DNA from: Pseudomonas quebecensis
Lineage (GTDB): Bacteria; Pseudomonadota; Gammaproteobacteria; Pseudomonadales; Pseudomonadaceae
Length of the DNA stretch: 64,000 bases
Direction of reading: 5' to 3'
NCBI RefSeq assembly: GCF_026410085.1
Contig: NZ_CP112866.1
Location: 682,001 to 746,000, forward strand
This document shows positions 39,427-44,668 of this stretch, in pieces. Each line of letters begins with the position of its first letter. The stretch's first letter is position 1. The position numbers and the translations under genes were made by a program. The notes under the pieces were generated by a model, which saw nothing but the letters and a program-made list of their open reading frames with translations, did not search any database and was not told where the DNA came from.

Positions 39427-39512
39427 GCTTCAAGCGGGTAAGCTTCAAGCTGCAAGTTGGAATAGGGTTGGCCTTTAGCCTGCAGCTTGTAGCTAGCGGC
39501 TTGCAGCTAATG
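39427..39512. repeat. AGCTTCAAGC/GCTTGCAGCT repeat cluster
   Basis: Several partly complementary copies of GCAGCTT(CA)AG and CTTGCAGCT lie in the spacer between folX and the DUF1244 gene. They form an imperfect stem-loop. The class is unlike the GTGGGAGG-type REPs in this window. Confidence 0.5.
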
Positions 39513-39864
39513 TTATCGACACCGATTCGGCAAAGCGCAGCGCATGGGGCTTGTCCACTTCGACCTCGGCGTACAACACCGATTCGTTGCTCATCACCAG
39601 GTCCAGCAGTTCCTGGGTCAGGCGCTCGAGCAGGGCAAAGCGGTTGCCCTCGACGTGGGCAATGATTGCCTTGGTGATGGTGCGGTAGTTCAAGGCATGG
39701 TCGATGTCATTGTCGCGCACCGCTTCCTGGGCCGCATACAGGATGGTCAGGTTGATCAGCACGTCCTGCTTGTTGAGGATTTCGTCCTCATTGATGCCGA
39801 TATAGGTGCGCAGGCACAGGTCCTTGACCCGGATGCGCGCCATGCCTGGTTGAAGTTGTGGCAT
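39493..39864 (-). CDS. folX: Dihydroneopterin triphosphate 2'-epimerase FolX
   Basis: A 123-residue FolB/FolX-fold protein that epimerises dihydroneopterin triphosphate to dihydromonapterin triphosphate. [21 protein letters not shown] and the C-terminal [15 protein letters not shown] are family features. FolX over FolB is inferred from its place with folE and folM; the three make tetrahydromonapterin, the cofactor of phenylalanine hydroxylase in Pseudomonas. The ATG at 39864 is two bases after the folE stop. Confidence 0.88.
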
Positions 39865-39866
39865 TG

Positions 39867-40427
39867 CTACTTGCTCCGTCCAATCAGTTGCAGGAACTCC
39901 GTGCGCGTGGTGTTCGACTCGCGGAACGCGCCGAGCATCACCGAGGTGTTCATGGTTGAATTCTGTTTTTCCACGCCGCGCATCATCATGCACATATGCT
40001 TGGCCTCGATCACCACGGCCACGCCGGCGGCCTGGGTTACCTCCTGGATCGCATCGGCGATTTGCCGCGTGAGGTTTTCCTGGATCTGCAGGCGCCGGGC
40101 GAACATGTCGACGATGCGCGCCAGCTTTGACAGGCCCAGCACCCGGCCGGTCGGGATATACGCCACATGGGCCTTACCGATAAAGGGCAGCAGGTGATGC
40201 TCGCACAGCGAATACAATTCGATGTCCTTGAGGATCACCATTTCGTCGTTGTCGGAGGCGAAGAGCGCGCCGTTGACGATTTCTTCCAGGTTCTGCTCGT
40301 AGCCATGACACAGGTATTGCATGGCTTTGGCGGCGCGCTTGGGGGTGTCGAGCAAGCCTTCGCGCTCCGGGTCTTCGCCCAGGCCCTTGAGGATCTCGCG
40401 GTAATGGTGGGGCAGGGAAAAGGTCAT
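39867..40427 (-). CDS. folE: GTP cyclohydrolase I FolE
   Basis: A 186-residue enzyme that converts GTP to 7,8-dihydroneopterin triphosphate. Zinc ligands C75, H78 and C146 are visible (LCEHHLLPF and KHMCMMMRG). It is the middle gene of folM-folE-folX. Pseudomonas genomes usually carry more than one folE, and this copy belongs to the monapterin operon. Confidence 0.95.
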
Positions 40428-40446: not shown

Positions 40447-41157
40447 TTACTTGATATGCCGCCCGCCGTTGACGGTCAGGGTGGTACCGGTGACATAAGG
40501 GTTATCCAGCAGGTAACGCACGCTCTGGTAGATCACGTCGGGGCCGGGTTCGATGCCCAGCGCCGACTTGGCGAGCACCCTGGCACGGTAGGCCGCATCG
40601 TCACCTTCGTTGAACATGACCATCGCCGGCGCAATGCCGTTGACCTTGATCAGCGGCGCGAGCTGCGCGGCGAACGACAGCGTGAGGCTGTCGAGCCCGG
40701 CCTTGGTGGCGCAATAGGCAATATGCTGGCGGCTGCCCTTGCGCACCACATCATCGCTGATATGCACGATATCGGCCGGTGAAGAACGTTGCAGCAAAGG
40801 TGAACAATGCAGGTTGATCAAGTACGGCGCAAGCATGTGCACGTTGAACATGTCGATAAACGCGCGGCTCTCGTCACCCGGCGTCTCGGCGACCCAGGCC
40901 GAGGCGTTGTGAATGATCGCGCGCAGGCTTTGGGTGTGGGTGTTCACCTGCGCGATAAACGCCAGCACCCCGGCCTCGCTGGAGAAATCAGCGAACAGGC
41001 CGATCGCACCGCGGTCACGAAGGGCTTGAACGCCGGGGCGTTCGCTGCGGTAACTGAATATCACTGGCTGGCCCTCGTCCAGCAGGCGATGGGCACAATG
41101 CAGGCCGACACGCTGGCCGGCACCGGTGATCAGGATCGGGGCGTTCGTTGCAGACAT
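40447..41157 (-). CDS. folM: Dihydromonapterin reductase FolM
   Basis: A 236-residue short-chain dehydrogenase that reduces dihydromonapterin to tetrahydromonapterin with NADPH. It has the TGAGQRVGLHCAHRLL nucleotide motif (arginine variant typical of pteridine reductases), NASAW, and the YCATKAG active site (about 150). It is the first gene of the operon, 19 bases before folE. Confidence 0.9.
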   Translation of the reverse strand: MSATNAPILITGAGQRVGLHCAHRLLDEGQPVIFSYRSERPGVQALRDRGAIGLFADFSSEAGVLAFIAQVNTHTQSLRAIIHNASAWVAETPGDESRAFIDMFNVHMLAPYLINLHCSPLLQRSSPADIVHISDDVVRKGSRQHIAYCATKAGLDSLTLSFAAQLAPLIKVNGIAPAMVMFNEGDDAAYRARVLAKSALGIEPGPDVIYQSVRYLLDNPYVTGTTLTVNGGRHIK

Positions 41158-41214
41158 GGGAGGCTCGCGTCGCTGGCAGGCTCGAATCATACCAGCGACG
41201 CGGCGCCCCTGTAC

Positions 41215-41775
41215 CTACGCCGCCGCTTCGGTAGGCTTGCCCGGCGGTGGGCTGGGGTGCAGCCAGTTCGCCAGCATGTGGGTCGACAAGGGAATGAACA
41301 GGTAAACCATCAAGGGCGTGAGTGCCAGGGTACTGACCAGCACGCGCGGCACCAGGGCCAGCTCGTTGAGCAGCGGCCCCAGGACAAAGTTGAACAACAG
41401 CGACACCGGAAAAAACGCCAGCCAGATAGCCACTGCCTGCTTCCAGCGCGGTGGGCGCGCACCTGCTGCGCCGAACCAGCCGTCGATGCCGCGCACGCGA
41501 TGCTCCGACGGGTCGGCAAACAGCTCGCTGCCGCGGCCCAGCCAGGCACTGCGCGAGGCGGAAAACTCCCAGGCGTGCAGGGTTTGCTCATCGGCAAAGC
41601 GGAAAATGATCTGGAACTCATCGTCATTGGGCGGCGGCGCCAGTACGCCGGAGCCCAGGTAACCGGGAAAATCGGTGGCCAATTGCTCGCCTTCGCGCAG
41701 CCAGGCCATCAGTTCTTCATAGCGTCCCTTGGCCACGCGGCGCGCAACCATCAGGGTAACGGGGGAGGTAGACAT
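41215..41775 (-). CDS. ABM-domain protein with C-terminal membrane segments
   Basis: A 186-residue protein: an N-terminal antibiotic-biosynthesis-monooxygenase-like (dimeric alpha-beta barrel) domain (about 5-95; VTLMVARRVAKGRYEELMAW) and a C-terminal part with two hydrophobic segments (about 115-165; AIWLAFFPVSLLFNFVLGPL and LVSTLALTPLMVYLFI). The barrel probably faces the cytoplasm. Members are described only as uncharacterised. It is divergent from the MerR gene, sharing a promoter region with a perfect inverted repeat, so it may be a target of that regulator. Confidence 0.75.
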   Translation of the reverse strand: MSTSPVTLMVARRVAKGRYEELMAWLREGEQLATDFPGYLGSGVLAPPPNDDEFQIIFRFADEQTLHAWEFSASRSAWLGRGSELFADPSEHRVRGIDGWFGAAGARPPRWKQAVAIWLAFFPVSLLFNFVLGPLLNELALVPRVLVSTLALTPLMVYLFIPLSTHMLANWLHPSPPPGKPTEAAA

Positions 41776-41953: not shown

Positions 41954-42949
41954 ATGCGCGTTCAATTACCGTTGGTTTTATGGTCGTCAATGCCCGTGAT
42001 CCATGCTCCCGTTGATAGTGTTTCGCAACCAGACTCGATAGATTTCAACGAGCTGTTTCCGATCCGTGAAGTGTCCAGAATGACAGGTATCAACCCGGTC
42101 ACCCTGCGTGCCTGGGAGCGACGCTACGGCTTGATCGAGCCCAAGCGCACCGAAAGTGGGCATCGGCTGTACACCCGCGACGATATCCAGACGGTCAGTC
42201 GCATCCTCGAGTGGATCGAGCGCGGGGTGGCCGTCAGCAAAGTGGGCAGGATCCTCGCCCGCGAACAGCAGCAGGCCGATGCAGTGCGTGCCGAGGGCGA
42301 TGCGCTGCAGGCCTTTGAGTGGTCACAATTGCAGGCGCGCCTGAGGCAAGCGGTCAGTGCCTTCGATGATCGGCAACTGGAAAGCCTGTACGGCCAGGTG
42401 CTAGCCACCTATCCGATCAGTGTGGCGTTCCAGGACATCTTCATGCCGCTGTGGAACGAACTGTTGCGCCATCAGGGCCGCTTCGGCCAGGCCAGCGAAT
42501 GGCTGTTCTTCGATGTATTCCTTAGGACCCATGTGCTGCAGCGCCTGCAGTTGGCAAGCCTTGGCGCGGCTCCCCGTGTCTTGATGGCGGCGTTGCCGGG
42601 CGAGTGCCGTAAGTTGGAGCTGCTGGTGGCGGCCGCCCTGTTGGCGCGCGATGACCTGGTCGTAAAGGTGCTGGGCATGGGCCAGCCGTTCGATGAGTTG
42701 ACGCTGGTGTGCCAGAAGACCCGTCCCCAGGCGCTGGTGCTGTTCTCCAACCACTCACATAACCAAGACCTGGCGGTGCGTTTGAATCGCCTCGCGCAGA
42801 CCCTGGACTGCCCGTTGTTCATCGCCGGCGCTGCGTCGGACCTGGCCGAGCACGACCTGGCAGGCTCCTCCATCGGTTGCCTGGGCAATGACGGGCCCGT
42901 GATGCAACGCCGCTTGCAGCAGTATCTGAGCGGCACGCTCGATACCTGA
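41954..42949 (+). CDS. MerR-family regulator, LitR/CarH-like without cobalamin ligands
   Basis: A 331-residue regulator: MerR DNA-binding domain at about 36-105 (FPIREVSRMTGINPVTLRAWERRYGL) and a C-terminal helical plus Rossmann-like sensor part of the LitR/CarH type (about 125-325). In B12-binding relatives an E-H pair caps the helical bundle and GExH holds cobalt. Here those places read E182-W183 and GECR (216-219), so adenosyl-B12 binding is unlikely. This is the class II LitR (PplR) pattern of P. putida, which works with a LOV photosensor. AAGG is six bases before the ATG; MPVIHAP at 41990 is an alternative start. A PilZ-like and a LOV gene converge on it. Confidence 0.85.
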   Translation: MRVQLPLVLWSSMPVIHAPVDSVSQPDSIDFNELFPIREVSRMTGINPVTLRAWERRYGLIEPKRTESGHRLYTRDDIQTVSRILEWIERGVAVSKVGRILAREQQQADAVRAEGDALQAFEWSQLQARLRQAVSAFDDRQLESLYGQVLATYPISVAFQDIFMPLWNELLRHQGRFGQASEWLFFDVFLRTHVLQRLQLASLGAAPRVLMAALPGECRKLELLVAAALLARDDLVVKVLGMGQPFDELTLVCQKTRPQALVLFSNHSHNQDLAVRLNRLAQTLDCPLFIAGAASDLAEHDLAGSSIGCLGNDGPVMQRRLQQYLSGTLDT

Positions 42950-42951
42950 CC

Positions 42952-43557
42952 TCAAGCGTGAACGTGCGGATGCGCCAGGCGGTGCTGATGCAGGATGAAA
43001 TGGCGCAGTCGCTCGGTTTCGTCCGCATCGCTCTGGCTCAAGCGATACGCAAACAGGCCACGCGCCGTTACCCGCTGCAACGTGCCACGCAAGGCGATGC
43101 GTTCGTAGCCCGAAGGGCTGAACCACAGCGCGAAGGTTTTCGGCGGCTTGAAGCGGCCACGACCCTCGACCAGCACACCCTTGAACGACACTTCATGCAC
43201 CCACAGCGCGCCGGGGTTGCCTCGGATATTTTCCAAGGCCACCAGCGTCTCCAGCACCAGGCGCCACGGGCGGATCATAGGGCCGTCTTCGAAAATGCTC
43301 GGCACCCCCAGGCGCAGATGCACCGCGTTGAACTCGTCCTCCACCAAGTGCAGGGGAAACGTCAGTTGCTGGTTGTCGAACTGGGCCTGGATGGTGACAT
43401 GGTCGTGGGCGGCGAGTCGGGTGAGCAAGTCGCGGATCTGCGCACCGCCGTTGACCGTCAGGCTCGACGAAGCGTCCCGCAGGTTCAACTGCGGGTTATG
43501 CTGCATGTTCTGAATGAAGTCCAGTTCATCCTGGGTCAGAAGCGCGTTGCGTGGCAT
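42952..43557 (-). CDS. PilZ-like (YcgR-type) protein with degenerate c-di-GMP motif
   Basis: A 201-residue protein. An N-terminal YcgR-N-like region (about 5-85) is followed by a PilZ-like beta-barrel (about 95-190). The canonical RxxxR and D/NxSxxG loop reads RPWR (96-99) and EVSFKG (122-127), so c-di-GMP binding looks weakened or lost. The stop lies two bases after the convergent merR stop. It lies 58 bases downstream of the LOV gene on the same strand and is probably co-transcribed with it. The PilZ assignment rests on pattern, not on a search. Confidence 0.65.
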   Translation of the reverse strand: MPRNALLTQDELDFIQNMQHNPQLNLRDASSSLTVNGGAQIRDLLTRLAAHDHVTIQAQFDNQQLTFPLHLVEDEFNAVHLRLGVPSIFEDGPMIRPWRLVLETLVALENIRGNPGALWVHEVSFKGVLVEGRGRFKPPKTFALWFSPSGYERIALRGTLQRVTARGLFAYRLSQSDADETERLRHFILHQHRLAHPHVHA

Positions 43558-43615
43558 CGCCGTTTGCTCAGTAGAAGTGCTAAAAGGCCATTATCCCCCT
43601 TAGTGACCGATGTTT

Positions 43616-44083
43616 CTAAATTTTGTTTGAGCCACTTGTCGCGCGAAGCGTCGCAAGTTCGGCCTTGACCTCAGCCAGTTCGGCCTCCAGTTGGGCCACG
43701 CGCTGCTGGGCCTTGACCTGCAGGGTCACATCTTTTTGCACGCCGACAAAATAGGTCTGCCGGTCAGCCTCGTTGTACACCGTCGACAGCGATAATTCAT
43801 TCCAGAAATGGCTGCCGTCCTTGCGGTAATTGCGCAGGATCTCACGGCACACCCCGCCGCTTTCCAGAGCGTCGCGAATGGCCATCAGCGCCGGCTGGTC
43901 GCGGTCGCCGGATTGCAGGAAACGGCAGTCCTGATAGAGGATTTCATCCAGCGTGTAGCCGGTCAGCCGTTCGAACGCCGGGTTGACGTAGATCAGCGGC
44001 TTGTCCTTGCCTTCGCGTTCGGCGACGACGATGCCGTCGTTGGAAGCGTTGATCACCAGTTGCATCAGCTTGGCATTAATCAT
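43616..44083 (-). CDS. Short LOV blue-light photoreceptor (PpSB1-LOV type)
   Basis: A 155-residue protein made of a single LOV/PAS domain (about 10-118) and a short C-terminal coiled coil (about 118-148). The photoactive cysteine is C53 in YQDCRFLQSGDRDQ, the same number and the same QDCRFLQ variant of NCRFLQ as P. putida PpSB1-LOV. NDGIVVAE, NYRKDGSHFWNEL and GVQKDVT complete the FMN pocket. No output domain is attached, so it must signal through a partner. An upstream ATG four codons earlier is possible. It is divergent from mioC. Confidence 0.93.
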   Translation of the reverse strand: MINAKLMQLVINASNDGIVVAEREGKDKPLIYVNPAFERLTGYTLDEILYQDCRFLQSGDRDQPALMAIRDALESGGVCREILRNYRKDGSHFWNELSLSTVYNEADRQTYFVGVQKDVTLQVKAQQRVAQLEAELAEVKAELATLRATSGSNKI

Positions 44084-44212: not shown

Positions 44213-44668
44213 ATGAAAGTCGCCATCCTTTCCGGCTCGGTGTACGGCACCGCAGAAGAAGTGGCTCGCCACGCTGTCGTCATCCTCGAGGCCGCAGGTT
44301 TACAAGCCTGGCACAACCCTCGCGCCACAATGGCGGACGTGCAGGCTTATGCACCTGACGCACTGGTGGCGGTAACGTCCACCACCGGCATGGGAGAACT
44401 GCCCGACAACCTCCAGCCCCTGTATTGCGCGCTGCGCGAGCAACTGCCCGGCGCCTTGCGCGGTTTGCCCGGCGCGGTCATCGCCCTGGGCGACGCCAGC
44501 TACGGCGATACCTTCTGCGCCGGTGGCGAGCAGATGCGTGAGTTGTTCGTCGAGCTGGGCGTGCGCGAAGTGCTGCCGATGCTGCCCCTGGACGCCAGCG
44601 AAAGCGTGACGCCCGAAAGCGACGCCGAACCCTGGCTGGCCGAGTTGGTCGCTGCCCTGCGCGGTTGA
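44213..44668 (+). CDS. mioC: Flavodoxin-like protein MioC
   Basis: A 151-residue FMN-binding flavodoxin-fold protein. MKVAILSGSVYGTAEEVARH forms the phosphate-binding loop, and TSTTGMGELPDN and GDASYGDTFCAGG are flavin contacts. E. coli MioC takes part in biotin synthase electron transfer. It is divergent from the LOV gene by about 130 bases. The FMN carrier next to an FMN photoreceptor may be chance. Confidence 0.88.
   Translation: MKVAILSGSVYGTAEEVARHAVVILEAAGLQAWHNPRATMADVQAYAPDALVAVTSTTGMGELPDNLQPLYCALREQLPGALRGLPGAVIALGDASYGDTFCAGGEQMRELFVELGVREVLPMLPLDASESVTPESDAEPWLAELVAALRG

Follow-up and report, generated by a model that had tools for sequence, protein, structure and literature searches.

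A PilZ-fold protein beside a LOV-MerR blue-light switch in Pseudomonas quebecensis is most likely an independent neighbour

Three adjacent genes of the soil bacterium Pseudomonas quebecensis encode a MerR-type repressor, a PilZ-like protein and a short LOV blue-light receptor, which raises the question whether the protein in the middle carries the light signal from the receptor to the repressor. A sequence-only reading of this DNA had taken the three genes as one light-sensing unit and had suggested that the PilZ-like protein could link receptor and regulator or read a different ligand. Here we analyze the locus within a window of 64,000 nucleotides, meaning the whole stretch of DNA under study (682001-746000 of a single-contig genome of 5.63 Mb). 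We consider it probable that LOV and MerR form the published blue-light switch, and that the PilZ-like protein is encoded by an independent side-by-side gene and is an unlikely relay.

The locus and its light pair

The genes run in the order folX, folE, folM and an ABM-domain gene (all minus strand), merR (plus), the pilZ-like gene and lov (both minus) and a flavodoxin gene (plus). The fol genes encode dihydroneopterin triphosphate 2'-epimerase (folX, 39493..39861; NCBIfam, 194.6 bits at a cut-off of 152), GTP cyclohydrolase I (folE, 39867..40427; TIGR00063, 260 bits at 181.6) and dihydromonapterin reductase (folM, 40447..41190; NCBIfam, 353.4 bits at 249). The flavodoxin is MioC-like (44213..44668; NCBIfam PRK05723, 280.7 bits at 204). 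Between folM and merR lies the ABM-domain gene (41215..41775; Pfam ABM, 25 bits at 23.1), which is found at the same place in many of the surveyed loci, including loci without LOV.

The merR gene (41954..42949, plus strand; an alternative later ATG is possible at 41990) and the pilZ-like gene (42952..43557, minus strand) are convergent, with stop codons 2 bp apart, and lov (43616..44083, minus strand) is codirectional with pilZ at a gap of 58 bp. The adjacency of the three genes is therefore as first described, but they cannot form a single operon since merR lies on the opposite strand. Within the lov-pilZ gap a motif scan returned TAGAAA-17-GATAAT (43590..43618, minus strand), which hints at a candidate promoter of pilZ itself; a sigma-70-like site with GATAAT is matched once in the region against 1.1 times expected from shuffles, which is chance level. 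GATAAT is retained in 11 of the 28 loci listed in a comparison of this gap, all of them close relatives, and ACTACAATCACC is common to four other loci.

The LOV protein (155 aa) has above cut-off matches to LOV/PAS models only (YtvA_fam and PAS) and no effector domain. It aligns with PDB 7yx0 (E = 3.4e-93) and with PpSB1-LOV (PDB 3sw1, E = 4e-52). The initial description as a short LOV with C53 within QDCRFLQ agrees with the open reading frame, and C53 is present in all 133 aligned LOV proteins of the locus. Position 66 holds Leu in the window protein, whereas the slow PpSB1-LOV has Arg66, and in the available text of PMC6047819 the exchange R66I makes dark recovery of PpSB1-LOV approximately 100-fold faster. 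Given this effect, the window LOV should, by analogy, recover in the dark faster than PpSB1-LOV. Leu66 is shared by 106 of the 133 locus LOVs (Arg in 24), which predicts a quicker dark recovery than that of PpSB1-LOV for most species.

The MerR protein (331 aa) carries an N-terminal HTH (Pfam MerR_1, E = 1.1e-16). When aligned with Thermus CarH, its E182-W183 falls on the E-H pair and its GECR (216-219) on GERH of the GExH motif, and both B12 domains stay under their Pfam cut-offs (B12-binding_2: 16.1 bits against 23; B12-binding: 12.3 bits against 32.1). Alignment and domain scores thus bear out the claim of a LitR/CarH-type MerR that lacks both cobalamin-holding motifs. With a MerR HTH, missing cobalamin-holding residues and an adjoining short LOV gene, the protein has the features of a class II LitR (PmlR2/PplR3-like). 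The available text of PMC11417400 calls class II LitR B12-dependent, contrary to PMC9758184. Among 128 MerRs of the surveyed loci, Trp occupies the position of the EH-His in 125. Even so, the His at the lower-ligand position of CarH is kept in 22 of the 128 (L119 and 21 genus loci), and cobalamin loss among class II MerR may consequently be graded.

A two-protein switch and its target operon

Pairing of a class II LitR with a LOV photosensor, as reported for P. putida, is backed by a direct mechanism published for P. mendocina (PMC9758184). The PmlR2/PmSB-LOV genes of this species are arranged in the same way next to fol genes; the LitR belongs to class II and lacks the B12 residues, and the short LOV has Cys53. 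Illuminated PmSB-LOV binds the HTH domain of PmlR2, for which Cys53 is required, inhibits DNA binding (Biacore) and lifts repression (run-off transcription). In vitro, light-dependent binding as well as anti-repression needed only the two purified proteins and were seen without addition of a third. The boxes have the form TGTACA-N12-TGTACA, and light induces the pmlR1 operon as well as folM and folE (2-3-fold). Some results of this study conflict: gels show a supershift where Biacore shows loss of DNA binding, and the two-hybrid interaction appears in the dark as well as in light. The cluster pmlR2-PME15565-pmSB-LOV is named as conserved in the same paper, with PME15565 given no function; likened by position alone, PME15565 should be the PilZ gene.

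On the basis of orthology, gene order and a conserved target operon we infer the same mechanism for P. quebecensis. Without light, the class II LitR would repress light-inducible promoters through TGTACA-N12-TGTACA boxes, and in blue light a Cys53-FMN adduct would lead LOV to bind the HTH domain of MerR, so that the DNA is released.

P. putida KT2440 reportedly has three class II LitR proteins (PplR1-3) with the cognate short LOVs PpSB1-LOV and PpSB2-LOV, in work attributed to Sumi in 2020 and cited in PMC9758184. The likeness to our strain concerns the class II LitR, its cognate short LOV and the box consensus, whereas the numbers differ: the P. quebecensis genome holds two MerR matches of PplR type and one short LOV, and KT2440 has three PplR proteins and two LOV proteins.

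A search of the P. quebecensis genome for the box consensus at no more than one mismatch gave 22 places, compared with 11 for the reversed pattern. Five boxes are perfect, and two of these, at 4427202 and 4427252, stand in tandem a short way before rudS. The operon that follows (L293 10703-18651, own genome 4427202 onwards) consists of rudS (TudS+DUF1722), a class II merR, phrB, an SDR gene, a FAD oxidoreductase gene and a CMAS-type gene, an arrangement that matches the published pmlR1 operon of P. mendocina. The published light regulon is therefore intact in this genome as judged from its sequence, with binding to the boxes predicted. The MerR of the rudS operon, unlike the window MerR, scores above the B12-binding_2 cut-off (32.6 bits against 23).

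Within the 64-kb window itself no PplR box was found at one mismatch or less. At two mismatches or less there are 6 PplR-like sites against 1.4 expected, none of which falls in the intergenic gap preceding merR, lov or the fol genes; these degenerate boxes exceed the shuffles and lie mostly inside genes. Control of the adjoining fol genes by the switch is accordingly no more than a possibility in this strain. With a variant half-site and up to three mismatches, the window holds 52 PplR-like boxes against 22.9 in shuffles.

Linkage of pilZ to the light pair across genomes

We surveyed 149 Pseudomonas genomes. Counted by genome, the PilZ-like protein is present in 142, LOV (E <= 1e-35) in 133 and MerR (E <= 1e-25, distant paralogues included) in 147. 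Counted by locus, MerR, PilZ, LOV and flavodoxin occur together in 119 of the 149, and the gap between LOV and PilZ has a median of 66 bases. Conversely, 18 loci carry PilZ without LOV and MerR, five carry LOV and MerR without PilZ, and two genomes have none of the three. In another five loci PilZ and LOV are found and MerR is not; a close MerR lies elsewhere in three of these genomes (G069, G118 and G148) and a distant one only in the other two (G091 and G142). Among the 18 PilZ-only loci, four genomes (G024, G025, G065 and G102) encode a divergent pair of LOV and MerR at another place, where PilZ is missing. The expected gene order across Pseudomonas was thus recovered in most loci, but PilZ's constant neighbour is the flavodoxin gene, which accompanies it in 142 of 142 genus loci (opposite strands, same fetched stretch). 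The linkage of PilZ to the light pair is frequent and not obligatory.

The other fourteen of these 18 PilZ-bearing genomes (G013, G018, G020, G026, G027, G028, G054, G056, G094, G104, G110, G117, G120 and G127) lack any LOV match at E <= 1e-35 across the genome and have, going by homology scores, one distant class II-like MerR each (E = 8.5e-33 to 2.6e-45).

Presence of LOV at the locus is associated with that of MerR (Fisher p = 1.7e-20), whereas no association is seen between LOV and PilZ (p = 0.24), both over 149 genomes that are not independent. In a tree built from 164 MioC rows, fewest-changes counts amount to 15 for LOV, 16 for MerR and 2 for PilZ; the tree is weakly supported (its starred branches hold two independent pairs, which is not enough for a sign test), and loss of PilZ comprises five loci and the two tree changes only. 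Given that LOV is tied to MerR and not to PilZ, and given these tree changes, PilZ appears to be retained for a reason unconnected with the light pair. On a wider scale the PilZ-like protein is found in 34 of 119 genomes (8 of 19 genera) in an even draw of the family, and in 5 of 194 genomes (2 of 96 genera, both within the family) in an even draw of the order. Twenty loci from other genera of the family show a flavodoxin match in 18 cases, LOV with MerR in four and PilZ without either in 16. In those without LOV, the pilZ gene comes after folX-folM and has the same orientation (for instance L115, L117, L122 and L126).

These results bear on the idea that PilZ modulates the light switch by binding LOV or MerR and adding a c-di-GMP input, being dispensable in some species. 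The very common MerR-PilZ-LOV order (119/149) and the close, codirectional LOV and PilZ genes, for which co-transcription is possible, speak for such a role and count against independence of PilZ. A precedent exists as well: in the available text of PMC10912698, the PilZ protein TssZ of P. aeruginosa binds the transcription regulator HinK in a c-di-GMP-modulated manner. TssZ, however, has the canonical RxxxR, which the window protein does not, and HinK lies outside the MerR family. Given the 18 PilZ-bearing loci without the pair, the five pairs without PilZ and the sufficiency of purified LOV and MerR, we regard modulation as quite improbable. For the same reasons a PilZ connector between LOV and MerR, for which TssZ-HinK would be the model, is unlikely, and the idea that PilZ is a necessary part is not supported. 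Independence of PilZ is more likely than its coupling to light.

Alternatively, PilZ might serve the adjoining pterin and flavodoxin genes, for example as regulator or partner of FolM or flavodoxin. The constant flavodoxin neighbour and the position after folX-folM in LOV-less loci of other genera fit this view, and pterins feed c-di-GMP control in Agrobacterium according to the available text of PMC13259868. Yet the argument rests on gene order, the divergent flavodoxin gene may be merely an old neighbour, and the fol genes do not adjoin PilZ in some loci (L036, L041 and L042), which makes such a role possible though rather doubtful. Our preferred reading is that pilZ would be an older, separately maintained gene, whose product most likely belongs with the fol-flavodoxin neighbourhood and is independent of the light pair.

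The PilZ-fold protein and its pocket

The PilZ-like protein has 201 residues, with the PilZ domain at approximately residues 93-199 and an N-terminal part to which no domain is assigned, and is 100% identical to that of Pseudomonas lurida. Pfam PF07238 gives it 12.5 bits, under the cut-off of 22.5, and it is absent among the six PF07238 places of its own genome. Nevertheless, a PilZ match at E <= 0.1 is obtained for 29 of 56 relatives (the best with E = 1.5e-7) and the fold of the window protein agrees with PilZ, so that the original assignment as PilZ-like stands. Being under the cut-off in this P. quebecensis strain, the protein is readily overlooked in a census of PilZ proteins. The closest PilZ receptors by comparison are YcgR, MrkH, Alg44 and MapZ (PDB 5y6f, 5kgo, 4rt1 and 5y4r).

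Both canonical motifs are altered. In place of RxxxR all 162 aligned proteins have RxWR, position 95 not being Arg; the register relative to Alg44 comes from structural ranges and from an hhalign alignment that is itself weak (E = 0.077, probability 0.7%). In place of [DN]xSxxG the window protein and 126 of 162 have ExSxxG, with DxSxxG in 19. Nonetheless the pocket positions rank among the more conserved PilZ columns: R96, W98 and R99 occur in 162 of 162, S124 in 158 and G127 in 155.

It might be argued from the RxWR variant and from Glu in place of Asp or Asn at position 122 of the window protein that this is a type II-like PilZ which has lost ligand binding and acts as a protein-interaction domain only. 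The near-invariant pocket columns, and D122 in 19 of the 162 proteins, argue against such a loss; we treat it as a serious possibility that falls somewhat short of even. The altered, strongly conserved pocket rather suggests, at the level of sequence, a nucleotide-like ligand, perhaps c-di-GMP, with the protein acting on some partner outside the LOV-MerR relay. A more specific version, in which PilZ senses c-di-GMP or a pterin through a new RxWR-ExSxxG pocket and tunes the LOV-MerR switch or the light-induced pterin pathway, seems to us a long shot. If true, light and second-messenger control would be joined at one locus via PilZ.

Summarizing, the light switch of this locus has been described before and is usual in the genus, and the analysis separates it from a neighbour that resembles its missing piece, which spares an experiment based on a mistaken premise. 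The PilZ-fold protein itself is widely retained in the Pseudomonadaceae, with an altered but strongly conserved pocket. The subfamily is real, conserved and off-canonical, and is uncharacterised in the literature searched. It looks like a relative of second-messenger sensors and as such a modest lead.
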